A stretch of DNA of 64,000 nucleotides, taken from NCBI GenBank assembly GCA_004322275.1, contig SCTA01000032.1, forward strand, positions 1-64,000, in the 5' to 3' direction. Numbering within the stretch: position 1 is the stretch's first letter; each line of letters starts with the position of its first letter. The position numbers were made by a program, and so were the translations under genes. Origin of the DNA: a bacterium (GTDB lineage Bacteria > Desulfobacterota > Deferrisomatia > Deferrisomatales > BM512). Shown here piece after piece: positions 15,436 through 59,118 of this stretch. The notes under the pieces are model-generated. The model saw only the letters and a program-made list of their open reading frames with translations, was not told the origin of the DNA and did no database searches.

Positions 15436-15604
15436 CTGAATATTCCTACACAAAAATCATCCTTCCCGGCCTTACATTTCCTGCGCGTCGCTTTACATTT
15501 AAAAACCGTGGAAGCGGAAAAAAAACCGGGAGGTGCGCTCAAAGGCCCAAGGGGGCAGCGGCCACCCGCCGGTAACAGGCAGAATGACTGCAAGGAGGAA
15601 CAAG

Positions 15605-18600
15605 ATGAACAGATTGCCAAGGTGGAGAAAGTCTATGGTCGGCTTATGCGCGGCCATGCTTTTCTCGGGCGGAATCGGGACCGTCGCACACGGGACGATA
15701 ATCGATCCCGACCACTCGCAGCCGCTGCTGGACCCGGCCCTGCAGCCGCAGTTCGCAACCGCTCTTCCCAATCCCCTCATACCCGGTTTTATATTGACCA
15801 AAGACACGACTACCTTTCCGGGAGTTGACTACTACGAGGTTTCGGCCCGTCAGATAGTGCAGCAAACCGGCCTCATTGACGAAGTGACGGGACTTCCTCT
15901 CAGCACCACTTTTTGGGGCTACGGCGACGCAAGGGTCGGCGCTACCACAGGTCTGCACACCTACCCCGGCCCGACCTTCGAGATTCGTTCCGGCGTCGAA
16001 TCCCGCGTCCGCTGGCTCAACGAACTTCCCGCGACCAGCCTTCTGCCCGTTGACACCACCATCGGCTGCGGCACTCCCGGCATTCCCTGCCCGCCGGTGC
16101 GCATAGTCACTCACGTCCACGGCGCGCACGTAACAGGCGACAGCGACGGCGGTCCTCTCCCTTGGTTTGGCCCCAATTTCGCACAGGTCTCCCCGTTCTG
16201 GGATCCGAATCCTTACGGCCTTCCCGGCACCTACAAATATCCCAATACCCAGGAAGCCGGAACGATCTGGTACCATGACCACGCTATGGGCACCACCCAC
16301 ACCAACGTTTGGGCGGGTCTTGCGGGTTTTTACCTGATACGCGACGCCAACGAAGATGCGCTACAGCTGGCGGGAACCCTGCCGGTGTACCCCTACGAAG
16401 TTCCGATCGCCATTCAGGACCGCAACTTCTACGCCGACGGCTCTCTGGCCATTCCCGACATGCCCGTCCGCGATCTTCTCAGCCCCCTTTGCGGAACCGT
16501 CATCGATCCCGTCACCGGTCTTCCCGTGGTCGATCCCGCGACCTGCCCGGTGGTTACCGATCCGGTTACCGGCCTGCCGATTCCCTCCATCACCCCGGAG
16601 CTTTTCGGCAACATCAACCTCGCCAACGGCATAGTATGGCCCAAGCTGGACGTCGAGCCCCGCGTCTATCGCCTCCGCCTTCTGAACGGCTGCGACTCCC
16701 GCGCCTATATCCTCCAGTTCAGCGATCCGGGGGTAATTTTCTACCAGATAGGAACCGATCAGGCTTTCCTCAACGCTCCCGTCGCCCTCAGCCAGATTAT
16801 CCTGATGCCCGGCGAGCGCGTTGACGTGCTCGTCGATTTCAAGAACGCCGTCCCCGGCAGCCAGGTCATCTTGCAGAACGTCGGCCCCGACGCGCCCTTC
16901 ATGGGACTCCCGGTCGATCCGCTGCTCGTCGCGAATCCTGCCACCACCGGCCGGATCATGGCCTTCAACGTCACCGTACCGCTTAGCGTTACGCCCGATA
17001 CTACGTCACCGGCTTTAATAACTTCGCTCCGCACTACGCCGATCACGCTTCCCGTAGCGACCGCCGCCGCTCCCCGCAAACTCGCCCTCATGGAGGGGAC
17101 CGACATCTACGGAAGGCTGATGCTGACCCTTAACGGCATCGAGTTCATGGCCTACCCGACCGAACTGCCGCTCCTTAACGACACGGAGATCTGGGAAGTC
17201 GCGAACACCACCCCCGACGTTCATCCGATGCATCTGCATCTGGTGCACTTTCAGGTCATAGAGAGGCAGGATTTCGATCCCCTGTCCTTCGTGCCCCCCG
17301 TGGCCGCCACGGCGGCTACGCCCTTCGTTCCCCCGAGCTGGACCCTCGTACCAGGCACAGTGGTGCCTCCTCCCGCTCAGGAAGCGGGGTTTGAGGACAC
17401 CATCCAGATGTTCCCGAACACCGTCACCCGCATCATCGCCAAGTTCGACATCGCGGGTAACTACGTCTGGCATTGCCACATCCTGTCGCACGAAGAGCAC
17501 GACATGATGAGACCTCTCATCGTCGTAACCCCCGCGACCGGGGTTACCGCCACCGCCAATCCCGCCGTTCCCGTAACCGCGGGCAACGCGGCGGTCACCT
17601 TTACGGCCGAGGGAACCACCAGCCTTCAGCCGACTCTCCGCTCGGCGGACGCTTTCGAGTACCAGTTCCTGGTCAACGGCGTAGTCGTCCAGCCTTATTC
17701 GATGATGCGCAATTTCATGTGGATCCCGACCGCGCCCGGCACCTTCGCGGTCGTCGCGCAGGCTCGCGCCTTCGGTTCTGTCGCCGCCTTCGAGGCCGCT
17801 TCAGCGCCCGTTAACTACACCACTAACGCCAACCTGACGGGAACCGTCATCAACCCCGCCACCGGGCTTCCGGTCTTAGGGGCTACCGTCACCGTCAATC
17901 CCGGCGCAATCACCGCTATGACAGACGCCGCGGGCGCTTTCGCTTTCGCCCTGGCCCCCGGGACCTACACCGTAACCTCCACCGCTACCGGTCTCGGAAC
18001 CGCAACCGGCGCGGCCACCATCGTCGCCGGAGCCGCCACCGCCGTCAACGTTCCGCTGCCCATCACCGCCGCCGCTAACGGCGTACTTACCGGAACGATA
18101 ACCGACGCCGCCACCGGTCTTCCGGTAGCCGGAGTCATCGTCACCGCCAACCCCGTTCCCGCCCCCGCCGCCGGCACCCCCGCGATTACGGCGGTCACCG
18201 ACGCTAACGGCAACTATGCGATAGCCGTCCCGGCCGGCAGCTACACCATAACCGCCACGGCTCTCGGCTTTGCAACCACCACAACCGCCACGGCTACCGT
18301 CGTAACCGCCGGAGCCAACGCCGCCCCCGCCAACGTGACTCTTACCGCGGGCGCTAACGGCACCGTCACCGGCGTAATCACCGACCCCGTCACCGGGCTT
18401 CCGGTTGTCGGCGCTACCGTTACCCTTACCCCCGGCGGCTTCACCGGGATTACCGACGCGACGGGCGCCTACTCCATACAGGCTCCCGCCGGGACCTACA
18501 CCGTTAGCGCCACTGCGCTCGGCTTTACCGCCGTTCCCGGCACCGCCATCGTGGCCGCCGGAGGCGCTGTCGCCGTTAACGTAACCGTTACCGCCGCCGC

Positions 18601-19276
18601 AAACGGCATACTTACCGGTCAGGTAATCGACGGGGCCACGGGTCTTCCCGCCGTCGGCGTCACCGTCACCGCCAACCCCGGCGGCTTCACCGCCGTAACC
18701 GGCGCCACCGGCAGTTTCTCTCTTGCCGTCCCGCCGGGAACTTACACCGTGACCACGACGGTACTCGGCTTCGGCAACGTAACCACCGCCACCCCGGTAA
18801 CCGTAGCCGCTGGAGCCACCGTTCCCGCCGGCACTACCACTATTACTCCCGCCCCCAACGGAACCATCACCGGCACCGTCACCGACCCCGTAACGGGCCT
18901 GCCCGTTGCCGGCGTCACAGTTACCGCTGATCCCGGCGGTTTCACCGGTGTTTCCAATGCGGCTGGCGTATTCACGATTACCGTCCCCGCCGGAACCTTT
19001 ACCGTCACCTCGGCGGCTACGGCCGCAGGTTCTCCGACGATCACCACCGGCGCTGTCGTAGGCGCGGGGGAGACGGTCACCGCCGACATCAACCTTGAAG
19101 CCGCAGTTGAAGTCGAAACCGGAGACGGTTCAGACAGCAGCAACGGCTGGTGCTTCATCTCCTCGCTTGGCTTCGGCTCGGATGAGGGTGAAGCCTCCGC
19201 TCCGATGGCGCTTGGCTTCATGGCGATGGTATTCGCCCTTGCCATGGCCCTTCGCGCCAGAGAAAGAAAGGTTTAG
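15605..19276 (+). CDS. Secreted multicopper oxidase with five carboxypeptidase-regulatory-like repeats
   Basis: A 1223-residue exported protein. ATG 15605 is chosen because AAGGAGGAACAAG precedes it and it opens a signal peptide (NRLPRWRK then a hydrophobic run, cleavage near AHG). The cupredoxin part (about 40-650) has all four copper-ligand motifs: HVHGAH near 168, WYHDHAMGTTHTN near 222, HPMHLHLVHF near 539 and HCHILSHEEHDMM near 623. Five beta-sandwich repeats of about 85 residues (about 742-1162), each opening with a TGTVTDPVTGLPV-like phrase, follow. The end is a Cys-containing SSNGWCF motif, a hydrophobic helix and the basic RARERK tail, which resembles a C-terminal sorting/anchor signal. 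Copper-dependent oxidation of metals or phenolics outside the cell is plausible. First gene of the electron-transfer locus. Confidence 0.9.
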   Translation: MNRLPRWRKSMVGLCAAMLFSGGIGTVAHGTIIDPDHSQPLLDPALQPQFATALPNPLIPGFILTKDTTTFPGVDYYEVSARQIVQQTGLIDEVTGLPLSTTFWGYGDARVGATTGLHTYPGPTFEIRSGVESRVRWLNELPATSLLPVDTTIGCGTPGIPCPPVRIVTHVHGAHVTGDSDGGPLPWFGPNFAQVSPFWDPNPYGLPGTYKYPNTQEAGTIWYHDHAMGTTHTNVWAGLAGFYLIRDANEDALQLAGTLPVYPYEVPIAIQDRNFYADGSLAIPDMPVRDLLSPLCGTVIDPVTGLPVVDPATCPVVTDPVTGLPIPSITPELFGNINLANGIVWPKLDVEPRVYRLRLLNGCDSRAYILQFSDPGVIFYQIGTDQAFLNAPVALSQIILMPGERVDVLVDFKNAVPGSQVILQNVGPDAPFMGLPVDPLLVANPATTGRIMAFNVTVPLSVTPDTTSPALITSLRTTPITLPVATAAAPRKLALMEGTDIYGRLMLTLNGIEFMAYPTELPLLNDTEIWEVANTTPDVHPMHLHLVHFQVIERQDFDPLSFVPPVAATAATPFVPPSWTLVPGTVVPPPAQEAGFEDTIQMFPNTVTRIIAKFDIAGNYVWHCHILSHEEHDMMRPLIVVTPATGVTATANPAVPVTAGNAAVTFTAEGTTSLQPTLRSADAFEYQFLVNGVVVQPYSMMRNFMWIPTAPGTFAVVAQARAFGSVAAFEAASAPVNYTTNANLTGTVINPATGLPVLGATVTVNPGAITAMTDAAGAFAFALAPGTYTVTSTATGLGTATGAATIVAGAATAVNVPLPITAAANGVLTGTITDAATGLPVAGVIVTANPVPAPAAGTPAITAVTDANGNYAIAVPAGSYTITATALGFATTTTATATVVTAGANAAPANVTLTAGANGTVTGVITDPVTGLPVVGATVTLTPGGFTGITDATGAYSIQAPAGTYTVSATALGFTAVPGTAIVAAGGAVAVNVTVTAAANGILTGQVIDGATGLPAVGVTVTANPGGFTAVTGATGSFSLAVPPGTYTVTTTVLGFGNVTTATPVTVAAGATVPAGTTTITPAPNGTITGTVTDPVTGLPVAGVTVTADPGGFTGVSNAAGVFTITVPAGTFTVTSAATAAGSPTITTGAVVGAGETVTADINLEAAVEVETGDGSDSSNGWCFISSLGFGSDEGEASAPMALGFMAMVFALAMALRARERKV

Positions 19277-19291: not shown

Positions 19292-19326
19292 AAAGGGCGG
19301 GCCCTCAGGGGTCCGCCCTTTTTTTG
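19292..19326 (+). terminator. Terminator after multicopper oxidase
   Basis: A 12-bp stem with one G-U pair (19292-19303 with 19310-19321), loop CTCAGG, then a run of T. It separates the oxidase from the next lipoprotein gene. Confidence 0.85.
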
Positions 19327-19342: not shown

Positions 19343-19750
19343 ATGAAAAAAACGATCGAAACACCCCTATTTAAAGGGGTCAACCTTGCATTGGTATTGC
19401 TGGTGGTAAACTTTGCGGTATGCGGCTGCGCGCTTCGGGGATATTCCGACACCGGCGCGGGAGGCCAGCCCTCCGTAGCGCAGGATCCGAAGGCAGCCCC
19501 TCCCACGGAGAAATACAAGACTACGGTTCTCTCGGGGGCCGTATCGCTGATAGAGGCGGACGGTACGCTCGTAATAATCGACGCATCCAGAAAGACCACG
19601 CTCCTTTACGTAAAGAAAGAAACGGCGCTGACCAAAGACGGCAAGCCCGCGAAATTCTCCGACATCAAGATCGGCGACCTGGTCAACGCAAAATACGCGG
19701 GCGCAAACGTCGCGATTGAAATCAGGATTGGGGGGGATGCGGCCAAATGA
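19343..19750 (+). CDS. Small lipoprotein of unknown function
   Basis: A 135-residue protein with an N-terminal lipoprotein signal (basic start, hydrophobic core, CGCA lipobox near Cys29), so probably membrane-anchored after export. The mature part is a small beta-rich domain (about 55-130) with alternating TTVLSGAVSLIEADGTLVII and DIKIGDLVNAKY, resembling the OB-like domains annotated as DUF5666; I am not certain of that family. It lies between the multicopper oxidase terminator and the barrel gene, in an operon-like direction. No heme or metal motif is visible. Confidence 0.72.
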   Translation: MKKTIETPLFKGVNLALVLLVVNFAVCGCALRGYSDTGAGGQPSVAQDPKAAPPTEKYKTTVLSGAVSLIEADGTLVIIDASRKTTLLYVKKETALTKDGKPAKFSDIKIGDLVNAKYAGANVAIEIRIGGDAAK

Positions 19751-19815
19751 GTTTTCATACGGTTTGTTTTCTTTAAATTAACTTGTCGTTTGCAAGGTGT
19801 TTCCAGGAGGCAGTC

Positions 19816-21108
19816 ATGACAAAAAAATCATCAGCGCTTTTTGCACTCGCGGTGGTGGCCGCCGCTCCTTCACTGGGGCTAACGGTCGCCAACGCGGCAG
19901 AGGTGAAGATCGACTCGGAGCTGATTGTCCGCTTTTTTGAACAGGAACTGCCCGGCGGCGACACTAAAAACGGAATTCCCGGCTATGAATACCTCCAGGT
20001 GGACGCGGGAAACCTCGGCTCCAACGGCCTTTCCGCCCATCTGTACGGCTGGGGCCGCTACGATTTCGGGGATTTCTACGACGACGCCTCCGAAGGCGAG
20101 ATCTTGTACGGCTACGTTCAGTACCGGGCGAAGGAGAGCAACTTTGACGCAAAACTCGGCCGCCAGTACGTCTTCGAGGGTGTGTCGGACGTAAGTATCG
20201 ACGGGCTGAAAGTGGGGAGCGACCTGACCGGATTTTTCACCGTTTCCGCGTACGCGGGCAAGCCGGTCGTGCTTGAGACCGTAGAGGGAACCACCGGGGA
20301 CAAGGTTTTCGGCGGAAGAGTTTCACATCATTACGGGGGGTATTACGACATCGGCGTCTCCTACAAGCGGGTGGAGGACGACGGCGAAAAACAGGAGGAG
20401 CTTGTCGGCGTGGATTCCTCGATCACCGCTCTCGGGCCGCTCTCCATTTACGGCCGCTCGGTGAGAAACCAGGAGGAAAAAGAGTGGCAGGAGCATTATT
20501 ACGAAGCCCGCCTGCGCCTCGCCTCGCTGACCCTCAAGCCCTTCTACCAGAAAGTCATGTACGACTCCTTCTTCGACACCGGATCCAGAAGCTCGACGCC
20601 CTTTACCGATCCTCTCGGCGGAATCCCGGCCTTTGACGAAAGCGGGGAGGAGGCGAGAATCGCCGGTCTGGAGATACTCTGGGACGTGACCTCCAAAACC
20701 GGACTCGGCGCAAAGTACAAGCAGTACGAGTACGAAGTCCGCGACGACGGGGCGAGGTACTACGCCGTTACGGGGAGTCAGAGATTCTCCGGACTGACGC
20801 AGTTCGGAGCGGAAGCGGGAAGGATGCAGGGCGACGCAGACGAGGACCAGTACAGCCTCGGCCGCATCTACGGTTACTACGATCAGGCCCCCTTCTTTGT
20901 CTCCGGGGAGGCGGTCTACGCCAAGTACGGCGAGAAGATTTACGGAGATCTCGGGGACGACAGGTCGATCTTCGTCTCACTCGGAGGCGGGACAAGACTC
21001 CTCAGCGATTCGTTGGCGCTAAAACTCTCCGGCGAGTACAGCAAGGATCCGAACTTCGACAAGGACGTGAGGGGGCAGTTCACCGTCGACTACGCCTTCT
21101 CGAAGTAG
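19816..21108 (+). CDS. Outer-membrane beta-barrel (porin-like) protein of cytochrome locus
   Basis: About 430 residues. ATG 19816 is preferred to the earlier ATG 19783 because CAGGAGG precedes it and it starts a clean signal peptide cleaved after NAA. The mature chain has alternating polar/hydrophobic strands, many aromatic residues (Tyr-rich segments such as GYYDIGVSYKRVE) and a final strand GQFTVDYAFSK, as expected for a large outer-membrane barrel. Placement just before three lipoprotein cytochromes matches porin-cytochrome conduits, in which a barrel sheathes a multiheme cytochrome to carry electrons across the outer membrane. Role in conduction is inferred. Confidence 0.8.
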   Translation: MTKKSSALFALAVVAAAPSLGLTVANAAEVKIDSELIVRFFEQELPGGDTKNGIPGYEYLQVDAGNLGSNGLSAHLYGWGRYDFGDFYDDASEGEILYGYVQYRAKESNFDAKLGRQYVFEGVSDVSIDGLKVGSDLTGFFTVSAYAGKPVVLETVEGTTGDKVFGGRVSHHYGGYYDIGVSYKRVEDDGEKQEELVGVDSSITALGPLSIYGRSVRNQEEKEWQEHYYEARLRLASLTLKPFYQKVMYDSFFDTGSRSSTPFTDPLGGIPAFDESGEEARIAGLEILWDVTSKTGLGAKYKQYEYEVRDDGARYYAVTGSQRFSGLTQFGAEAGRMQGDADEDQYSLGRIYGYYDQAPFFVSGEAVYAKYGEKIYGDLGDDRSIFVSLGGGTRLLSDSLALKLSGEYSKDPNFDKDVRGQFTVDYAFSK

Positions 21109-21160
21109 GAGGGATTTTGCCATGCCGAAAGAGAGATTTTTAAATAGAGGGAGCATCGAC

Positions 21161-21625
21161 ATGCGGATAAAAGCATTCACGGCGACAGCGATCGCGTTAT
21201 TTCTGCTTTGCGCCTGCGCGGGTCTCAAGGGCGGCTACTCCCTTCCGGCCAGCCACCCCGAGGAACTCTCGAAGAATCGCCCGGTCTGTTCCTCCTGCCA
21301 CGAAGAAAGCAAGGGGGGGCTTGTCTACAAGCGTTTTGACCACACCCTGGCCTTCGCTCAGGGGAACCACAAGAACGAAGCGTATCAGGAGGAGAGGGTC
21401 TGCGGGATGTGCCATGCCCAGAGCTACTGCAACGACTGCCACGTCACCAGCACCGAGCTTAAGCCCTCCACGAAACGCGCAGACGAGACCTACCGCCAGA
21501 TGCCTCACCGGGGCGACTACCGCACCCGCCACAGGATTGACGGGCGGCTCGATCCCGCGTCCTGCTTTTCCTGCCACGGTAACCCCAGGGCGGCCGCCTC
21601 CTGCGCCGTCTGCCACGGAAAGTAG
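21161..21625 (+). CDS. Pentaheme c-type cytochrome lipoprotein
   Basis: About 154 residues. The frame is open from ATG 21122, but ATG 21161 (GAGGGAGCATCGAC upstream) begins exactly at a lipoprotein signal, MRIKAFTATAIALFLLCAC. Five CxxCH heme-attachment motifs follow: CSSCH, CGMCH, CNDCH, CFSCH and CAVCH. The protein would be exported, loaded with five hemes by the cytochrome c maturation machinery and lipid-anchored. Spacing to the barrel gene (52 bases) and the next cytochrome (15 bases) indicates one operon. Likely a periplasmic-side partner of the conduit; inferred. Confidence 0.9.
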   Translation: MRIKAFTATAIALFLLCACAGLKGGYSLPASHPEELSKNRPVCSSCHEESKGGLVYKRFDHTLAFAQGNHKNEAYQEERVCGMCHAQSYCNDCHVTSTELKPSTKRADETYRQMPHRGDYRTRHRIDGRLDPASCFSCHGNPRAAASCAVCHGK

Positions 21626-21640
21626 AAGGGGAGGGTTATT

Positions 21641-24022
21641 ATGAGAAACAGACTTGTTTTCGGCTTTACAGCTCTCCTCCTCCTTGCGTTTGCGGTTGGC
21701 TGTTCCGACACGAAAGTCCCGATCGGCGCTCCGCATCCTCTGGGGCGTGAATGGCTCATAACGGGAGGCGCGGATTTCCACGGAAGCAGTTCACTTAACT
21801 GTTCGGACTGCCACGACCCGGAGAGTTTTTGTTTCACCTGCCACTTCGGACCCGGAGGGGCGAAGGTTCCGCCGGATTCCGGCTGGTCTCACGGCAGCTT
21901 CCCCCACGACCTCGACCTTCTGAAGTCCGTCGGCGACGTGTGCGACCGCTGCCACGCGATAACGAAACGCTACACGGATCAGCCTGACCAGTGCCACCTT
22001 TGCCACGAAGCGGCCCCTCTGCCCCACCCGATGGGGCGAACGTGGCTCTCTTCCGAAGGGGCGCAGTTTCACGGCAATCCCGAAATACTTGACCTTCCCT
22101 TTTGTCAGGAATGCCACGAAATCTCCACCTTCTGCTCGGAATGCCACTTCGGCCCCGGCGGAGCGAAGGTGCCGGAAGGCGTGGACTGGCCTCACGGCTG
22201 GATGAGCCACACCCAGAGCGCGCTCGTTGACGTTGCGGCGGTTTGCGTGCGCTGCCACGAACTTACCCGCTCCTTCGGCCAGGGGCCCGGCAACGCTACC
22301 TGCACAGGCTGTCACGACGGCGCTTTTCCGATGCATGAATCCTATGCACCGGCAGATTCCAGCCTGCACTACGCCCCGGCGAAAGAAAACCTGAAGCTTT
22401 GCCAGTTGTGCCACGGAAGGCCGGGCACAAGCTTCGAGTCAGGGGTGTCGGTTGTCGCCTGTTCCACCTGTCACGAAGCCGCGAAAGCCCATCCCACGGA
22501 CTGGCAGGGCGACGGAACCTTCTCTCACCGCACGGCTGGCAACATGGATACGGCCTGCGTACTTTGTCACGACGTGACACAGGGACGGACACCGCCTCTG
22601 GAGAGCTCGCCAAGCTGCTTCTCCGCCGAGTTTACCAACGCGGACGGCCAGACCCGCACCTGCCATCCCAACGGGTTTATTCCCCACGCCAGGATCTTCG
22701 CGGCCCCGGAACTGCACGGCGGTCCGGCAAAGGAAAACCTCTCCTACTGCCAGATATGCCACGGGACTCCGGGGACGACGAGCTTTAGCGGCGGCTCCGC
22801 CGACACCGCCTGCTCGACCTGCCACACAGCGGCCGACGCCCATCCCACAGACTGGCAGGGAGCCGGGACTTACTCGCACCGGACCGCGGGCAACGCCGGA
22901 ACGGCCTGTACCATCTGCCACGACGTAACCGAGGGGAGGACGCCGCCCAACCCCGACGCTCCGAGCTGCTTCGCAGTTAGCTTCACCAACGCCAACGGCC
23001 AGACCCGCGACTGTCATCCCGGCGGCCCCGGCGTGCCCCACGCGATGCCCTTCGCGGCCGCGAACCTGCACGGCGTCCCCGCCAAGCAGGACCTGACCTA
23101 CTGCCAACTCTGCCACGGGCAGCCGGGTTCGACGAATTTCGGCGGCGGCACGGCGGAGGTCGCCTGTTCCGCCTGCCACACCGCCGCAAGAGCGCACCCG
23201 ACCAACTGGCAGGGCGCGGGGACCTACTCGCACCAGACGGCCGGCAATCTGACCGCGGCCTGCGGTCTCTGCCACAGGACTACCGGGGCGGGAACGGGAC
23301 CGCTTTCCGGCGCGCCCAGCTGCTTTAACTCCACCTTCACCAACGCGCTCGGCCAGACGCGGCCTTGCCACGAAGGCGGCCCGGGGATTCCCCACGCGCC
23401 TCCCGCCCAGTTCGCGCTGCCCTCCGCCCACGGCCCCGTGGCCAAGCAAGACCTGGCCTACTGCCAGAAATGCCACGGCCAGCCCGGAACGCGGTTCTTC
23501 GAGGGCGGCAGCGCCACAGCCTGCGCAGCCTGCCATACCGCGGCCAAGGCTCATCCCACCAACTGGCAGGGCGCGGGCACTTATTCACACCGCAACGCGG
23601 ACAATATGCCCACGACATGCTCGCTCTGCCATGACTACACCCAGGGGAGAACCCCGCCGATGGCGGGGTCGCCGAGCTGTTTCGCCGCCTCCTTTACAAA
23701 CGCTCTCGGGCAGACGCGAAGCTGCCACCCCGGCGGGCCGGGAGCCACCCATCCGCTGGGCCAGCCCTGGATGGACAGCAGCAACAACCCGCAGTTCCAC
23801 GGCCTTAGCTCTCTGGTCTGCTCGAACTGCCACACCTTCGCCAACAAGTGCTCGCAGTGCCACTTCGGGACCATAACCAACCCGACTTACTCACCCGCGG
23901 GCAGCCACGTCACTTTCGGTAGCCACGACAACTATGGGTCTTTTGCGTCGGTCTGCAACGCCTGTCACAACACCAACAGAACTTACGGCAATCCGCCGAG
24001 CAGTTGTCACAACTGCCATTAA
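21641..24022 (+). CDS. Giant multiheme cytochrome lipoprotein (24 CxxCH plus 4 CX14CH)
   Basis: 793 residues with a lipobox at AVGC21. I count 24 canonical CxxCH motifs. The chain is modular. Two related tetraheme units (about 30-125 and 128-225) each begin HPxGRxW and contain CHFGPGGAKVP. Four repeats of 117-119 residues (about 250-700) follow, each with three CxxCH and one long-spaced Cys-X14-CysHis (Cys326-Cys341, 443-458, 561-576, 680-695). A final tetraheme unit of the first type closes the chain (about 704-793). If the long-spaced motifs bind heme, the total is 28 (7 x 4). Probably an outer-membrane or extracellular electron conduit next to a barrel protein. Confidence 0.92.
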   Translation: MRNRLVFGFTALLLLAFAVGCSDTKVPIGAPHPLGREWLITGGADFHGSSSLNCSDCHDPESFCFTCHFGPGGAKVPPDSGWSHGSFPHDLDLLKSVGDVCDRCHAITKRYTDQPDQCHLCHEAAPLPHPMGRTWLSSEGAQFHGNPEILDLPFCQECHEISTFCSECHFGPGGAKVPEGVDWPHGWMSHTQSALVDVAAVCVRCHELTRSFGQGPGNATCTGCHDGAFPMHESYAPADSSLHYAPAKENLKLCQLCHGRPGTSFESGVSVVACSTCHEAAKAHPTDWQGDGTFSHRTAGNMDTACVLCHDVTQGRTPPLESSPSCFSAEFTNADGQTRTCHPNGFIPHARIFAAPELHGGPAKENLSYCQICHGTPGTTSFSGGSADTACSTCHTAADAHPTDWQGAGTYSHRTAGNAGTACTICHDVTEGRTPPNPDAPSCFAVSFTNANGQTRDCHPGGPGVPHAMPFAAANLHGVPAKQDLTYCQLCHGQPGSTNFGGGTAEVACSACHTAARAHPTNWQGAGTYSHQTAGNLTAACGLCHRTTGAGTGPLSGAPSCFNSTFTNALGQTRPCHEGGPGIPHAPPAQFALPSAHGPVAKQDLAYCQKCHGQPGTRFFEGGSATACAACHTAAKAHPTNWQGAGTYSHRNADNMPTTCSLCHDYTQGRTPPMAGSPSCFAASFTNALGQTRSCHPGGPGATHPLGQPWMDSSNNPQFHGLSSLVCSNCHTFANKCSQCHFGTITNPTYSPAGSHVTFGSHDNYGSFASVCNACHNTNRTYGNPPSSCHNCH

Positions 24023-24089: not shown

Positions 24090-24461
24090 ATGAGAACGAA
24101 GAAATTACTTGGAATCCTGGCCCTGTTGTCGCTGGTGTTTGTCGCAGCCTGCGGTGGAGAAGACGACGGCGCCCCCCACTCACTCGGCCGCGAATTTTTC
24201 ATGGCCACCGGAACCCAGTTCCACGGCGACAGCACCCTTGACTGCGAAGGTTGCCACGGCGGAACCATCGGCAACTGTACCAGGTGCCACTTCGGCCCCT
24301 CCGGAGCGCGCGTTCCCGACGGAGTGACCTGGACCCACGGCGATCCTCACACCGGTGTAGGTTTCAGTCTCAATTCGGCGGTGGGGGATGTCTGCAACCG
24401 CTGCCACAACTACACCCGCAAGTACAACAGCGTTCCCGCGGCTTGCCACGACTGCCACTAA
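24090..24461 (+). CDS. Tetraheme c-type cytochrome lipoprotein
   Basis: 123 residues with a lipobox at VAAC, then four CxxCH motifs (CEGCH, CTRCH, CNRCH, CHDCH). The whole mature part is one copy of the tetraheme module found three times in the preceding giant cytochrome, starting with HSLGREF and carrying CHFGPSGARVPDG. It begins 67 bases after that gene. ATG 24090 follows GGTAGGTGACTAA. Likely an electron carrier or docking partner of the large cytochrome, arisen by module duplication; function is inferred. Confidence 0.9.
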   Translation: MRTKKLLGILALLSLVFVAACGGEDDGAPHSLGREFFMATGTQFHGDSTLDCEGCHGGTIGNCTRCHFGPSGARVPDGVTWTHGDPHTGVGFSLNSAVGDVCNRCHNYTRKYNSVPAACHDCH

Positions 24462-38146: not shown

Positions 38147-40264
38147 TTAATTCCTTCCCAAAATTTCTGCAATTTTACCAATATTTTCTATAATTAAATT
38201 TGCATCATTCTGATCGATATTAATCAGCTTCTCTCTCTGAAGTTTCTTAATTGCATCTGGAAGATTGTTTTTTTCTTTTGAGCTAAATCCTGCAAAAAGA
38301 GTTCTAACCTTTTTTCTCATTTCTGCTTGAGCTCTACCAGGTCGCCAAAATTGCTCTAAAACTTTTATTTCCAAATCTGTATATGTTTCGTCATGCTGCT
38401 CAGTGATAGATCTGTCCGTATATTGTATCTCAAATAACTTTGTTCCAGTTTCATTGCAACCAATAAAATCCTCATGCCTAAGAAGTTCGACATTTTCAAA
38501 ATAGCAATTATGAAATGAACAGGATATAAAATTAACATTTATAAAGTTTTTAAAATCAAATTTACAATTAGTAAAAACAGTATCCAAGAAGGTGCATGTT
38601 TCTATAGTATTAGTTGAGAAGTCGAATTGATCTAATGAAAGGCTATTTATCGTATCGTTGTATAGTTTACTACTTAAAAATTTTATTAACTTGTCATCAA
38701 TCGTAATCTTCAATTTGGCAGGCAGTAAAGTATCGAGGGTAAGCATAACCTTATCATGCAATCTCTTTCTTAGCTCAAACGATTTTGTTGAGAATGACAT
38801 TGGCCCAAGTTCTAGCCATGGCGTAACCGCTAATTCTAATAAGAATTCTTCGTCACTATTAATGGTTGCGTGTGCAATAAAATAACCAAATAAAAATTGA
38901 TTTAAAAACCCTATCCTTCTGTCGGCAGTGCTTATTCTATCAAAAAAGGCATGATTTATTATCTTATCTATTAATTCATCAAGTTTTTGTACTTCACTAG
39001 GTCCGCTACGATCGATGGCATTCTGTAAGGTAATGACAATGTTGTGCTCTTCGATAAGCAATTTAAAAAATGATCTATCTAAAGCCGATGAATTGTTTAA
39101 CACCATTCCTTTGGCTATAGCCGTAAGAACTTCTTTCTGTTCACTGCTAGTTAAAGGCAATACTTGCCTTTCTCTTTCTCGTTCAAACATAAATGAAAAA
39201 TAGCTTTCAACCAATCCATCAGGTGCCTTCGCTTCTTCCTCCACTTTTTCTTTTGGCATATTGCGTATATAGGATAGCAGTACCGGGTTGGACAAAGATT
39301 CCAAAGGAAAATTAGTTTTTTTAAGAATTTCAGACCGTTCCCGGCCGATCCAATCGTTTGTTGAAGGTGCTTCTAATTCAATTATATGGAGTCCAAAAGA
39401 ACATGATTCTTGGCAACGGTTAATCCAAGCCTCAAAACCATCATCAGTGAAAATAGCTGTTCTTCGTGTTGTTAGAATAATTTTTGCTTGCCCTACTAGC
39501 ATCTCGGCTATTGTGTCAAGCATCGACTGTGCATCTTCAAAATCAGCTTGCCGTCCCTCGGCTATGTTAACTTTTAGTAATTCATCAAAACCATCTATAA
39601 TTACAGGAATAAGTCCTTCCTGTATCTGCGTTTTTACTAAGCCTGAGTTCAAAGTTGGATACATAGAATCTATTTCATCTAAAAGAACGTATTTAAATAT
39701 TCTCGCAGATCTATTGCGAGCTAACTCGGCAAATATTGGATTGCCTATTGTTTGATTTGAAAGCATATCATTCATAATTTCATAGGCAGTAGAGGTTTTG
39801 CCGTAACCAGCCGCAGCTTCTATTATAACTAACTGAGGACCATTATCAAAAAGAAAACTTGCAATCCTATTAATAATCCCTTTATCATCAAACTTAACGT
39901 TGTCTATTGTATACAAACATGGTATATATTCATATTTACCTCCTATTGTTAATGATCGTTTATCGATATAGTTATTATATTGATTTCGCAATCTCTCGTG
40001 GATTATACCGGGCGTAAAAAACGAGTTGAATAACAGTTTGGCAATATCTTCTTTGCTGTTATACTCTACAATTCTGACGGCGTATCCAGCACTTTTATAT
40101 TTGTTTTCATATATTTCTACGTTTATGGTTTTATCAAATACAACGATATCTACACCGTAATAAACACCTCTATTAAATTCATAAATACCTATACCCGGAA
40201 CCGTATCTGCAATCTTATAACCATATTTCTCATAAAAAGAGTCAATATGTGTAGGAGTTTTCAT
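38147..40264 (-). CDS. NACHT/STAND NTPase with pentapeptide-like C-terminal segment
   Basis: 705 residues. The central NTPase (about 140-340) has Walker A AAAGYGKTS (150-158), the NACHT-type Walker B VIIDGFDELL (221-230), and an LTTRR sensor (264-268). Residues 1-80 form an unassigned alpha/beta domain with YYGVDIVVFD and VEIYENKY. The 340-540 region is helical, as in the arm of STAND ATPases. Residues about 543-595 form a short run of pentapeptide-like units rich in F, C and N (CTFLDTVFTNCKFDF), then a helical tail. Bacterial NACHT proteins are known anti-phage sensors that oligomerise on recognising a trigger. Here the effector appears to be the RelA/SpoT-domain protein encoded next. No transmembrane segments are seen. 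Confidence 0.85.
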   Translation of the reverse strand: MKTPTHIDSFYEKYGYKIADTVPGIGIYEFNRGVYYGVDIVVFDKTINVEIYENKYKSAGYAVRIVEYNSKEDIAKLLFNSFFTPGIIHERLRNQYNNYIDKRSLTIGGKYEYIPCLYTIDNVKFDDKGIINRIASFLFDNGPQLVIIEAAAGYGKTSTAYEIMNDMLSNQTIGNPIFAELARNRSARIFKYVLLDEIDSMYPTLNSGLVKTQIQEGLIPVIIDGFDELLKVNIAEGRQADFEDAQSMLDTIAEMLVGQAKIILTTRRTAIFTDDGFEAWINRCQESCSFGLHIIELEAPSTNDWIGRERSEILKKTNFPLESLSNPVLLSYIRNMPKEKVEEEAKAPDGLVESYFSFMFERERERQVLPLTSSEQKEVLTAIAKGMVLNNSSALDRSFFKLLIEEHNIVITLQNAIDRSGPSEVQKLDELIDKIINHAFFDRISTADRRIGFLNQFLFGYFIAHATINSDEEFLLELAVTPWLELGPMSFSTKSFELRKRLHDKVMLTLDTLLPAKLKITIDDKLIKFLSSKLYNDTINSLSLDQFDFSTNTIETCTFLDTVFTNCKFDFKNFINVNFISCSFHNCYFENVELLRHEDFIGCNETGTKLFEIQYTDRSITEQHDETYTDLEIKVLEQFWRPGRAQAEMRKKVRTLFAGFSSKEKNNLPDAIKKLQREKLINIDQNDANLIIENIGKIAEILGRN

Positions 40265-49426: not shown

Positions 49427-49729
49427 GTTGCGTAGAGCGGCAAAACAAGTAGTTGCATTTATCGGAGGTGCCCTTTCATGTGAACTTTAATGCATCCCTA
49501 GGTTAATGATGTCCCATATAATATTAAGCATAAAAAAGCAGCCCTTAAAGGTATTGCTTTCCTTGTAATATCCACCAAAAAATGATACGAGTAAGGTATT
49601 GAGTTATTTTTTGGCGCTTGTATGCAGAAAGAAGTTTAGCGTGATTGCTTAAAAAAAAGACCATAGTTGTCCGCTTAAGGAAGCCCAATGTTTCGGCGGC
49701 CAAAAATTAATTTTTGGAGGGTAGTCATC
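49427..49729. other. A+T-richer intergenic region
   Basis: About 300 bases with lower G+C than surroundings and no gene, repeat or terminator that I can support. The ribosome site GGAGGG for the LRR gene is at 49716. An upstream in-frame ATG at 49688 lacks one. Confidence 0.4.
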
Positions 49730-52700
49730 ATGGCTGGCAATCGATCTATCGTTTTCATGCTTGTTTCTCTGGCTCTGTTTATCATTGCCGCAGGCTGCAC
49801 CGGCGTCGAAGGCGGCAAGAGCTACTTGCCCCCGGACATTGAAACCCAGGATTCACTGGGCAAACCTACCGATACGGGTGCCACGGAGATAGTTTTCAGC
49901 TGGCCTCCCCAAAGTCCCTTTACAGTATTGAAGAGCAGCAGCTTTATTTTAACCGGAACCGCGACGGACCCGGATGGGGTTCAGGAAATAAAATGGTCTA
50001 CCGGCCGAGGTGAAAGCGGCGTCTGCAAAGCAACGGTCAATTCCTTTTTCGCCTCCGGCGAGATACCTCTTCAATCGGGTGCGAACGAACTGTCCGTCAC
50101 TGTGACGGATACTTCGGGCAGCACCTGCAGTTCCTCAGTAACTATCATAAATGACGATGCCGACCACGAACCCCCGCTTGTCCGTTTTGTCAACCTGATC
50201 CCCAACGAATATAATATAGATGTGAAGAGCAGCGTCATCATAGCCTTCAACGAGGCGATGGATGGTTCCACCATAAACTCTTCCGCCTTCACCCTCGTAA
50301 TCGGGTCAAACCCGGTTCCTGGAGTTGTAAGCTACGACGCAAACACAAAGAAGGCGACCTTTACCCCCGGCCAGCCTCTGGCCTATTCAACCGGTTACAC
50401 CGCGAGGGTGACTACAGGGGTGAGTGACATCGCCGGGAACCATCTGTCTTCCGACAAAGTGCTGACCTTCACCACAGCCGGCATGGACAAGGTTGCCACC
50501 CCGGTTATTGATCCTTCCGAAGAGCCTGGACCAGTGCATTTTTACGACGAGGGGGTATCCGTAAGAATAACCAGCGCTACCCCGGGTTCGTCGGTCTATT
50601 ACACCACCGACGGCACGAATCCAACAACCGCATCGGCCGTGTTCCAAGACGTAATATTTGTAAGCTCCACAACTACCGTAAAGGCCATTGCCGCAAAAAG
50701 CGGAATGGCCGATTCCTCGATTGCAAGCGAATATTTCGTAAGAGAATTGGGTAATCCTGAACCTCCGCCAATCGTCAGCGGCCACTTCCCGGACCCAAAC
50801 CTCGACGCATGCGTAATGAAAGCTACCCGCGGAGATACAAGCACTGAGGCTCTTGCAGGCTTGACGGAGCTTTATTGCTCTGAAGTTGGGATAAATTCTC
50901 TCGACGGACTGGAGCAATTGTCCGGGCTTGGCGTATTGTCCATTTATTACGGTAAGTTAAATGACTTGCACCCCCTTTCAAAAATTCCCTCTCTGCATAA
51001 ACTGTTGATCATAGGTGGCGGCGAAATCACGGATCTTTCCCCCCTCGCGGGGCTGGAGAATCTGAAGTTCCTCAGCATCTGGTATAACAAAATTGAAGAC
51101 CTCTCGCCTTTGAGCGGGCTGACCTCTCTTGAATACCTGTGTCTTTGGGGCAACGATATAGTAGATATTTCCGCGCTCTCAGGTATGAAGTTTCTTAAAT
51201 GGCTTGAACTGCGCCAGAATAAGATAACTGATATCTCCACCGTCTCCGGATTGGACAATTTAATTAGTCTTGGTATTGAAGAAAATCAGGTAAAGGACCT
51301 GTCTCCTGTATACGGGTTACAATTTTTATCCGAAATTGCCGCATCACACAACAAGGTTGAAGTTCTATCGCTACGCGAGTTGCCTTCCCTCATTACCATT
51401 TGGCTGGACAATAACAACATTAGCCGGGTCGAATCGCTTTCGGACTTTGTTACCCTTAAAAATCTCTATCTCAGAAATAACCGGATCACCGATTTGCCTC
51501 CCTTGCACTTGTCCAGCTTGGGTGACGTGAAATTGAATGGCAACATGATTACGGACATCTCTCCTCTGGCGGGCAATCAACTAACCAATCTTGAGTTGCG
51601 ACAAAACAGGATTGTAGACATATCCCCACTTCAGAAAAGAGTAGGAGATGGGCTATATGGCACGGGATACAAATATCTCGATTTGGGAGACAACCTTATA
51701 ACCGACATATCCCCTTTAGCTTTGTGCCCCATCGAGAACCTTCTTCTCGGAGGGAACAGGATAGCCGACATCTCGCCCCTGGCTGGAAATACATCCTTGA
51801 AAGAACTGGGGCTTTCCTCAAACCCCATCACGGACATAACCCCGCTTTCGCGAACGCATCTTGAAAGGTTGTATCTCGAAAAAGCCAACATATCCGACAT
51901 TGCCGCGCTTTCCGGGATAAAAGAGTTGGGTTACGTGGAACTGAGCAACAACGATATAAGTGATCTGTCCCCTCTTGCCGGTCTTCCTGCACTGTGGTTT
52001 ATTGCTGCTAAAAATAACAGGATCACTGACCTCGGGCCGATATGGCAATTGCCGAAGCTCCGGATGCTCAATGTGTCGTACAACCAGATCGAAGCCCTTC
52101 CTTCCGGGCCCGGTCTGCCGGAGGCAGGGATTTTATGGCTCAGCCACAACAACATCTCGGACTTGGCCCCGCTGCAAGGACTTCCCCTTCTTCTCAAGGT
52201 AGACCTCTCCTACAATCGGGTCACGGACCTTTCACCGGCGTGCGGAATAGTCAGTCTTGGCGAAATCAGGCTCTCAAATAACCTGATCTCCGATCTCACT
52301 CCCGTGAGCAGAATTCCAAAACTGAAAAACATTGACCTTGGCTACAACCCTATAATGAGCCTAGCTCCTCTTCAGGGGCTGCCTCTGGTGATGCTGAGTC
52401 TCGATGGCCTAAACCTTAGCTTGGAGCCGCTGGGCGAAATGCCCTTTCTGCTGGGGCTGAGCGCTGCTTACAACCGTATTTCGGATCTGTCTTCGCTTGC
52501 GAGGTTCAAGTATCTTGAATATCTAAGAATTAACGACAACCTCGTAACCGACCTGTCGCCGCTGGCGAATATGACCTCGATGGAAAGACTCTATCTGGGC
52601 AATAACCAGATAGCAGACATTACCCCGCTTGGCGGAATGTCCAGGCTTCAACTCCTCGAACTGAATGGAAACCCGCTTACAAGCCTGTCGCCGCTCGCAG

Positions 52701-53095
52701 GTACGCCTAAGCCAATCCTGACGATAATCAAGCTGAAGTCATGCAGGGTCACCGATTTTTCCCTGCTCGCCGACATCGGCTACCTTCATGGATTACAAGT
52801 GCTGGACGCGAGCGACAACGGCATCACGGATTTGTCCTCGTTTTCAAATTTGACTTCTTTAACGTCCCTCACGCTGGAGAACAATCAGATATCAGACCTG
52901 TCGCCTCTTTCCGGGCTCCATAATCTGGGCAGTCTGTATCTTGCACACAACCTTATCGAAGACGTCGCGCCCTTGTCCAAAATTCGCCCGGATTATTTAA
53001 GTCTTGAATACAATTGCATTACCGATTTTTCGCCGGTTTCATTCGTCAGAAACCTCTTTACCGATCCGCAAAATGTAGACTGTGTCCAACAATAG
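49730..53095 (+). CDS. Leucine-rich-repeat surface lipoprotein (internalin-like)
   Basis: About 1121 residues. Signal ending IIAAGC gives a lipid-anchored Cys near residue 20. Then an Ig-like domain (about 45-135), a Big_5-type Ig domain (about 145-245, PPLVRFVNLIPNEYNIDV through LTFTT), and a chitobiase-C-like beta domain (about 250-335, VYYTTDGTNPTTA). From about 355 to the end are roughly thirty 20-23-residue leucine-rich repeats of the SDS22/internalin type (LSPLAGLxxLxxLxLxxNxIxD). Such proteins bind other proteins or glycans at the cell surface. Base composition is lower in G+C than most of the window, so transfer is possible. No partner gene is adjacent. Confidence 0.88.
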   Translation: MAGNRSIVFMLVSLALFIIAAGCTGVEGGKSYLPPDIETQDSLGKPTDTGATEIVFSWPPQSPFTVLKSSSFILTGTATDPDGVQEIKWSTGRGESGVCKATVNSFFASGEIPLQSGANELSVTVTDTSGSTCSSSVTIINDDADHEPPLVRFVNLIPNEYNIDVKSSVIIAFNEAMDGSTINSSAFTLVIGSNPVPGVVSYDANTKKATFTPGQPLAYSTGYTARVTTGVSDIAGNHLSSDKVLTFTTAGMDKVATPVIDPSEEPGPVHFYDEGVSVRITSATPGSSVYYTTDGTNPTTASAVFQDVIFVSSTTTVKAIAAKSGMADSSIASEYFVRELGNPEPPPIVSGHFPDPNLDACVMKATRGDTSTEALAGLTELYCSEVGINSLDGLEQLSGLGVLSIYYGKLNDLHPLSKIPSLHKLLIIGGGEITDLSPLAGLENLKFLSIWYNKIEDLSPLSGLTSLEYLCLWGNDIVDISALSGMKFLKWLELRQNKITDISTVSGLDNLISLGIEENQVKDLSPVYGLQFLSEIAASHNKVEVLSLRELPSLITIWLDNNNISRVESLSDFVTLKNLYLRNNRITDLPPLHLSSLGDVKLNGNMITDISPLAGNQLTNLELRQNRIVDISPLQKRVGDGLYGTGYKYLDLGDNLITDISPLALCPIENLLLGGNRIADISPLAGNTSLKELGLSSNPITDITPLSRTHLERLYLEKANISDIAALSGIKELGYVELSNNDISDLSPLAGLPALWFIAAKNNRITDLGPIWQLPKLRMLNVSYNQIEALPSGPGLPEAGILWLSHNNISDLAPLQGLPLLLKVDLSYNRVTDLSPACGIVSLGEIRLSNNLISDLTPVSRIPKLKNIDLGYNPIMSLAPLQGLPLVMLSLDGLNLSLEPLGEMPFLLGLSAAYNRISDLSSLARFKYLEYLRINDNLVTDLSPLANMTSMERLYLGNNQIADITPLGGMSRLQLLELNGNPLTSLSPLAGTPKPILTIIKLKSCRVTDFSLLADIGYLHGLQVLDASDNGITDLSSFSNLTSLTSLTLENNQISDLSPLSGLHNLGSLYLAHNLIEDVAPLSKIRPDYLSLEYNCITDFSPVSFVRNLFTDPQNVDCVQQ

Positions 53096-58305: not shown

Positions 58306-59118
58306 ATGAAAACGTCTGCCCTTGCTCACGTTGCGCTTTTTGCTCTTGCCTGCGTGCTTTTGGCGTCGCCCCGAATCGCCTTTGCAGGCGAGGTAATGGA
58401 TTTGAGGGGTAAGGTCGTCGATAATTCCGGCGCGCCTGTTCCTGGAGCGCAGGTAAGCATCGGCGATTCGCTGACGCAAGCCGACGAGAACGGCGGTTTT
58501 GTCTTCCGCGATTTACAAAAAAACCGCCCCATAGCGATAAAGGTGTCCTGCCTCAGCAAGGACGGAAACCGCGCAGAGTGCAGGGAGGTGAGAACCTTCA
58601 CGACTTTTTACGCCCTCTCCGCCTCCGCCGGAAACCTGATGGCGGTAAAGGTGGTCGGGACCAAATCGAATGAGCCCGTCGTGCTGGCCCTGAACGAAAA
58701 CAGCCAGGAATCGCTGGATGGCTACTGCATGTCCTGCCACAACTGGGACCCTTGCTTTGAAGGTCTGTCTCTGGAACAGCTTCAGGCAAACAACAGACCG
58801 ACTCCCTATCTCTTCCCGAATTCCGAAGAGATGCAAAAATTCATCGACCGGGTAAGCAGCGAAGGCGTTGACGTCGATTCCTACGGCACCTGCCTCTACC
58901 AGACTATCCATCCCCTCGGAGCCGATATGAAAAAAGCCGAATTGGGGGTCGATGCGCATCCGGGGACGAGTTTCAAGTTCCCCGAGGGGCTGGTTTTGTG
59001 CCAGGACCGCTATCTCCAGTGCGTGACCTGCCATACAAACCATCTCGCAACGCTAAACGGCTCTTTCCTTCGCCTTCCGCTCGAAGACAACGCGCTCTGC
59101 GACCAGTGCCACCTTTAA
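58306..59118 (+). CDS. Triheme cytochrome with carboxypeptidase-regulatory-like domain
   Basis: 270 residues with a signal peptide cleaved near AFAGE. Residues about 30-120 form a beta-sandwich like those in the multicopper oxidase (GKVVDNSGAPVPGAQVSIGD). Then three CxxCH motifs: CMSCH, CVTCH and CDQCH. The first is followed by NWDPC. Probably periplasmic or exported, with the sandwich as an attachment module. ATG 58306 follows GTGGAGGAGAGCC. It shares the sandwich plus redox theme with the 15.6-kb oxidase although it is 40 kb away. Confidence 0.85.
   Translation: MKTSALAHVALFALACVLLASPRIAFAGEVMDLRGKVVDNSGAPVPGAQVSIGDSLTQADENGGFVFRDLQKNRPIAIKVSCLSKDGNRAECREVRTFTTFYALSASAGNLMAVKVVGTKSNEPVVLALNENSQESLDGYCMSCHNWDPCFEGLSLEQLQANNRPTPYLFPNSEEMQKFIDRVSSEGVDVDSYGTCLYQTIHPLGADMKKAELGVDAHPGTSFKFPEGLVLCQDRYLQCVTCHTNHLATLNGSFLRLPLEDNALCDQCHL

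Follow-up and report, generated by a model that had tools for sequence, protein, structure and literature searches.

A predicted 28-heme outer-membrane cytochrome with four CX14CH motifs in tandem tetraheme repeats

Long Cys-Cys spacings within c-type heme motifs have been described in a few multiheme cytochromes. In the OmcZ filament of Geobacter sulfurreducens a CX14CH motif holds heme 1, with the extra residues forming a loop (PMC9473688, PMC11208441) whose removal suppressed the reduction of soluble acceptors (PMC11208441), and the OmcZ structure carries all eight hemes (PMC9473688). A 2014 survey reported atypical CX3-15CH motifs in the outer cytochromes of Pcc conduits, GSU_2724 among them, and left heme binding by CX>4CH motifs undecided (PMC4245776), a question which, within the literature searched, has been structurally settled only for OmcZ. 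A separate lyase serves the CX15CH motif in Wolinella (PMC6976685), cytochrome c3 harbours CXXXXCH twice (PMC10454114), and a 2025 study tallied hemes as CX2-5CH (PMC12545173).

The locus analysed here lies in a window of 64,000 nucleotides (the whole stretch of DNA under study, on contig 32), in which the ORF at 21641-24022 (+) encodes a 793-aa protein. A motif scan of this protein confirmed the 24 CXXCH and four CX14CH motifs of the preliminary description, the latter numbering exactly four (Cys326-Cys341-His342, 443-458-459, 561-576-577 and 680-695-696) and succeeding each other at intervals of 117, 118 and 119 residues. All 57 cysteines could be placed: 48 belong to CXXCH, 8 to CX14CH, and the only one outside heme motifs, Cys21 (codon at 21701-21703, +), is the predicted lipidated residue of the sequence AFAVG-C-SD, which we take to be a lipobox. 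With its single free cysteine in the lipobox and 28 CXnCH motifs, the product is a predicted outer-membrane multiheme lipoprotein cytochrome, an assignment drawn from the ORF, its motifs and its matches to PF14537. The motifs are arranged in seven tetraheme repeats, three of type A, with four CXXCH each, and four of type B, with three CXXCH and one CX14CH, and they follow the A-A-B-B-B-B-A order that had been proposed [A(30-124), A(127-228), four B (239-709) and A(702-793)]. On the plus strand, repeats A1 and A2 span 21728-22012 and 22019-22324; B1 to B4 occupy 22355-22702, 22703-23056, 23057-23416 and 23417-23767, with their CX14CH motifs at 22616-22666 (residues 326-342), 22967-23017 (443-459), 23321-23371 (561-577) and 23678-23728 (680-696), respectively; and the last repeat, A7, covers 23744-24019, its first histidine (His704) doubling as the last histidine of B4. 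The FTNxxGQTR stretch previously noticed between the two cysteines is present in all four B repeats, as part of a common loop C-F-x3-FTN-A-x-GQTR-x-CH.

The two cysteines and the histidine of the fourth motif (slot 4) were invariant in 12 aligned repeats drawn from eight named loci in addition to the window, as were the F, N and R of the loop, and the histidine after the second cysteine was invariant in a wider set of 36 aligned repeats. Four non-motif histidines are also kept in each B repeat. The four B repeats share only 61-68% DNA identity, so the conservation of Cys, Cys and His is no by-product of very recent copying. The same divergence led us to reject the trivial explanation that the motif is conserved because B was recently duplicated in place, and it makes collapsed or misassembled repeats unlikely. 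In a repeat tree the four B repeats did not form a supported single clade and were nested with repeats from Geobacter-like genomes.

When the B repeat was used as a search profile, relatives turned up in 12 of 395 genomes sampled from the phylum, in 31 of 141 genomes of the order containing the Geobacter-like genomes, in 6 of 24 genomes of another order and, at a laxer cut-off, in 7 of 12 genomes of the window's own order. Merging identical repeats left 72, and the 71 with at least three motifs were analysed; since the search profile was made from CX14CH repeats plus one CX16CH repeat, this sample is biased against the recovery of CXXCH forms. Slot 1 was CXXCH in all 71 repeats and slot 3 in 70, while slot 2 was CX2 in 45 repeats, CX4 in 18, CX5 in 6, and CX3 and CX6 in one each. 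Slot 4 was CX14 in 27 repeats, CX2 in 18, CX5 in 10, CX9 in 9 and CX10 in 3, with single cases of CX4, CX13, CX16 and CX19. In cytochrome c3 the two CXXXXCH motifs belong to hemes 2 and 4, which correspond to the slots that vary in these repeats. Every one of the 71 repeats has at slot 4 a CXnCH that starts no more than 25 residues past slot 3, against a mean of 4.4 repeats and a maximum of 10 when the tails were shuffled. It started 6 to 23 residues past slot 3, often behind the same (A)PSC, and the change of length can be followed in the sequences themselves (GAPSCKSCH, SCFSATCH, APSCFSASFNGISCH and SPSCFAASFTNALGQTRSCH). As a CXnCH of varied n always stands at slot 4, we consider CX14CH a lengthened form of an ordinary heme site. 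Among individual relatives, one repeat (L092, residues 138-251) has the pattern CX2, CX4, CX2, CX4 CH, that of classical cytochrome c3. The Geobacter-like relatives L017-L024 share a plan made up of a repeat with spacings 2,9, three with 2,5,2,5, one with 2, 2 or 4, 2, 14 or 16, and usually one with 2,2,2,2; CX1CH also occurs in L018, L020 and L022.

The Pfam family PF14537 (Cytochrom_c3_2) matched the cytochrome in four stretches with 64.3 bits, against a curated cut-off of 25. In B2 the match covers hemes 1-3 (profile positions 7-67 of 79), and in one relative with CXXCH at slot 4 it reaches profile position 78. The extension of the match to the end of the profile where slot 4 is CXXCH indicates that slot 4 corresponds to heme 4 of the domain; in the other relatives of this kind tested, the best stretch lay elsewhere and scores stayed under the cut-off. 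The supply of candidate distal ligands was then compared with the number of motifs. The protein holds 28 non-motif histidines for its 28 CXnCH motifs, in a tally made by sequence alone that sets aside the motif histidines and two further ones inside CXXCH (119 and 790). With one motif histidine and one distal histidine per heme, the account closes at 28 hemes. Across a set of 29 proteins, which includes one unrelated decaheme and one protein twice, neither of them removed, the number of free histidines correlated with all CXnCH motifs at r=0.95, against r=0.80 with CXXCH alone. A simple fit assigned 1.17 histidines to each CXXCH and 1.03 to each other motif, values which became 0.89 and 0.77 when protein length was added. 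The ratio of free histidines to all motifs ranged from 1.00 to 1.40 in these 29 proteins, several relatives having histidines in excess.

The same cysteines could in principle form disulfides bracing each B repeat, which would then hold three hemes, for 24 in the whole protein. AlphaFold2 models of B2, built with 12 and then 36 alignment rows, were of low confidence (mean pLDDT 50.8 and 53.5), and both placed a pair of short strands (93-95 and 101-103) within the loop, at most a hint of a hairpin; conserved cysteines 15 residues apart around such a hairpin would have a plausible geometry for a disulfide. A Foldseek search with the second model against solved structures returned two meaningless matches (best E 8.8). 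We nevertheless regard the disulfide as highly unlikely, because it has no need for the histidine found after the second cysteine in all 36 aligned repeats, because the slot is occupied by CXXCH, CX4CH or CX5CH in homologous repeats, and because a motif of equal length holds heme in OmcZ. A count of 24 hemes would moreover leave Cys pairs, CH histidines and further histidines unused, four of each. Heme at the CX14CH sites is, as a prediction, well supported, and tetraheme repeats adding up to 28 hemes, as first suggested, are the reading that best accommodates the slot-4 length series, the histidine balance and the OmcZ precedent.

The genes around the cytochrome suggested where it may work. 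Upstream and on the same strand lie a putative porin-like outer-membrane protein (19783-21108, +; a later start codon is possible) and a pentaheme lipoprotein cytochrome (21122-21625, +; five CXXCH). The pentaheme protein has a lipobox-like cysteine and is a predicted periplasmic multiheme cytochrome; a match to it is present in 91 of 138 genomes from the order to which Geobacter belongs. The porin-like protein had no match in Pfam or NCBIfam and contains 115 amphipathic 9-mers, compared with 77 ± 16 in its shuffles, a value reached by 5 of 500 shuffles. At 13 loci with relatives of the cytochrome (L017-L029), upstream homologues of the pentaheme protein were found in 11 and of the porin in 10; the exceptions are L020, whose contig begins inside the pentaheme gene and so lacks the porin, L028, whose contig measures 3.7 kb, and L029, which is only weakly related. 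On a larger scale, the 141 genomes of the order that includes Geobacter gave 32 B-repeat matches, and at least 28 of these are immediately preceded by the pentaheme gene in the same orientation: 27 among the matches listed and one (G469, the genome of L020) from inspection of the locus. Of the remaining four, one has its pentaheme gene in the opposite orientation, another sits where its contig begins, and for two no pentaheme neighbour was among the matches listed. Shorter relatives, some 400-540 residues long and having CXXCH, CX4CH or CX10CH at slot 4, occupy the same place in the operon as the long ones. No large MtrA-like periplasmic cytochrome is encoded beside the 21641-24022 gene. As the porin-like and pentaheme genes precede it and this order is kept in relatives, the cytochrome is probably the outer component of a porin-cytochrome conduit. 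Downstream, a free-standing tetraheme lipoprotein (24090-24461, +) consists of a single repeat of type A and shares 47% identity with residues 1-125 of the 793-aa cytochrome. A small putative lipoprotein (19343-19750, +), with no match in Pfam or NCBIfam, is encoded by the first gene past a terminator-like site (19292-19321) and appears to belong to the conduit operon.

Other genes of the window deserve mention in their own right. Directly upstream of the conduit operon, on the other side of the terminator-like site, 15533-19276 (+) encodes a multicopper oxidase of 1247 residues that includes five carboxypeptidase-regulatory-like repeats and may oxidise metals at the cell surface. The gene at 58306-59118 (+) specifies a further c-type cytochrome, which has three CXXCH and whose N-terminal part is carboxypeptidase-regulatory-like. 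A protein of 1135 residues, encoded at 49688-53095 (+), has 14 stretches of leucine-rich repeats together with Big_5 and Fn3-associated domains. The protein encoded at 38147-40264 (-) combines a NACHT domain with an N-terminus resembling inactive restriction endonucleases (NA-iREase2), an architecture shared with some anti-phage defence proteins.

The genomic setting also bears on whether the slot-4 hemes might be catalytic or specialised like the CX15CH heme of MccA, making the protein an enzyme instead of a wire. MccA/SirA sulfite reductases need their long-spaced motifs for activity (PMC6976685), and the loop of the B repeats is conserved, with F, N and R unchanged in 12 repeats. However, the motif occurs in four tandem copies, each with its own candidate distal histidine, as would fit bis-His electron-transfer hemes, loop length varies freely among relatives, and the gene sits in a porin-cytochrome cluster, all of which make an enzymatic role very improbable indeed.

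A genome-wide search for the maturation machinery found ResB-type matches on contigs 15, 18 and 37 and CcsA-type matches on contigs 7, 15 and 37. The dedicated heme lyase that the preliminary description had suggested looking for did not turn up near the gene: no heme lyase adjoins it on contig 32, and the synthase-type matches all lie on other contigs. A 13-CXXCH cytochrome is encoded close to the ResB/CcsA pair of contig 15, and the other three ResB/CcsA stretches fetched contained no cytochrome with two or more CXXCH. Maturation would most likely proceed through the general CcsBA-type synthases of the cell and not through a dedicated lyase. It could be argued that heme occupancy of the long motifs is partial, or that attachment is by one thioether, so that the protein would carry 24 to 28 hemes depending on growth conditions or on the synthase; the CX15CH of Wolinella requires its own lyase, and ResB/CcsA-type matches are spread over several contigs with none beside the gene. 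Conservation of both cysteines together with the histidine speaks against such partial occupancy, as does the full complement of hemes in the OmcZ structure, and we consider it very unlikely.

Taken together, the protein is very probably the surface-exposed terminal 28-heme cytochrome of a porin-cytochrome conduit, built of seven tetraheme units in which CX14CH clamps heme 4 of the B units. All 28 motifs would carry a bis-His c-type heme, with heme 4 of each B unit attached via Cys-X14-Cys-His; the two cysteines would sit approximately as in CXXCH, and the 12 extra residues would leave the chain as a loop bearing FTNxxGQTR, perhaps a beta-hairpin. Electrons from periplasmic carriers would travel by way of the porin and the pentaheme cytochrome into the 28-heme chain and on to an extracellular acceptor, or in the reverse direction; the type of conduit suggests Fe(III) or Mn(IV) oxide as examples of such an acceptor.

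A more speculative and rather doubtful proposal is that the heme clamp of the tetraheme module can evolve by insertion at slot 4, and to a lesser degree at slot 2, taking from 0 to 17 extra residues while the heme is kept, and that in this protein the loop became fixed at 14, four times in register, as a structural element at the junction between units, giving a one-polypeptide wire with a pitch of four hemes. If so, it would reach by one chain the end for which other bacteria polymerise separate subunits. For the family as a whole, the question of heme binding by CX>4CH is answered in principle by the series of spacings, CXXCH to CX19CH, at a single position, which also yields ready test proteins. 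If the long motifs bind heme, tallies based on CXXCH only or on CX2-5CH would undercount hemes, as the sequence of L018 (7713-11467) illustrates, with 24 CXXCH against 37 motifs in all.

Compared with described systems, the likeness to OmcZ lies in a CX14CH of the same length, which holds heme there; the OmcZ filament subunit, however, has eight hemes and only one CX14CH, at heme 1, whereas this protein has 28 motifs and four CX14CH. Searches of solved chains with the cytochrome, the B profile, the pentaheme protein and the porin returned nothing related, and OmcZ, if it is represented in that set, was not matched by the protein (E<=1) or the B-repeat profile (E<=10). With no sequence relationship detected, the equal loop length is probably a convergence. 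The preliminary description had pointed to the CX15CH of MccA: long spacing is indeed known from the MccA/SirA octaheme sulfite reductases, but OmcZ, with a motif of equal length, is the closer precedent. MccA is an octaheme enzyme with a single CX15CH and, in Wolinella, a dedicated lyase, in contrast to the repeated CX14CH, the absence of any CX15CH, the conduit setting and the lack of a nearby lyase seen here. GSU_2724 (ExtG/OmcV, extEFG) resembles this locus in the order of porin, pentaheme and large multiheme cytochrome (PMC4245776, PMC6148476) and in the atypical long motifs of the third protein, a likeness of gene order and motifs; ExtG was predicted to be periplasmic (PMC6148476), whereas the 793-aa cytochrome has a lipobox. 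The cytochromes of the 2014 survey had 1 to 15 typical motifs (PMC4245776), compared with 28 motifs in seven repeats here and one loop length used four times. Considering the CX14CH heme of OmcZ and the atypical motifs of that survey, this type of heme site is not itself new. The open-licence literature searched yielded no account of a protein in which CX14CH is repeated, and what appears to be new, within that literature, is a fixed long clamp used four times in one protein together with a series of lengths at one site. The tetraheme module itself resembles cytochrome c3 and Cytochrom_c3_2 (PF14537), from which the present family differs in its slot-4 loops of up to 19 residues, its tandem repeats and its lipid anchor.
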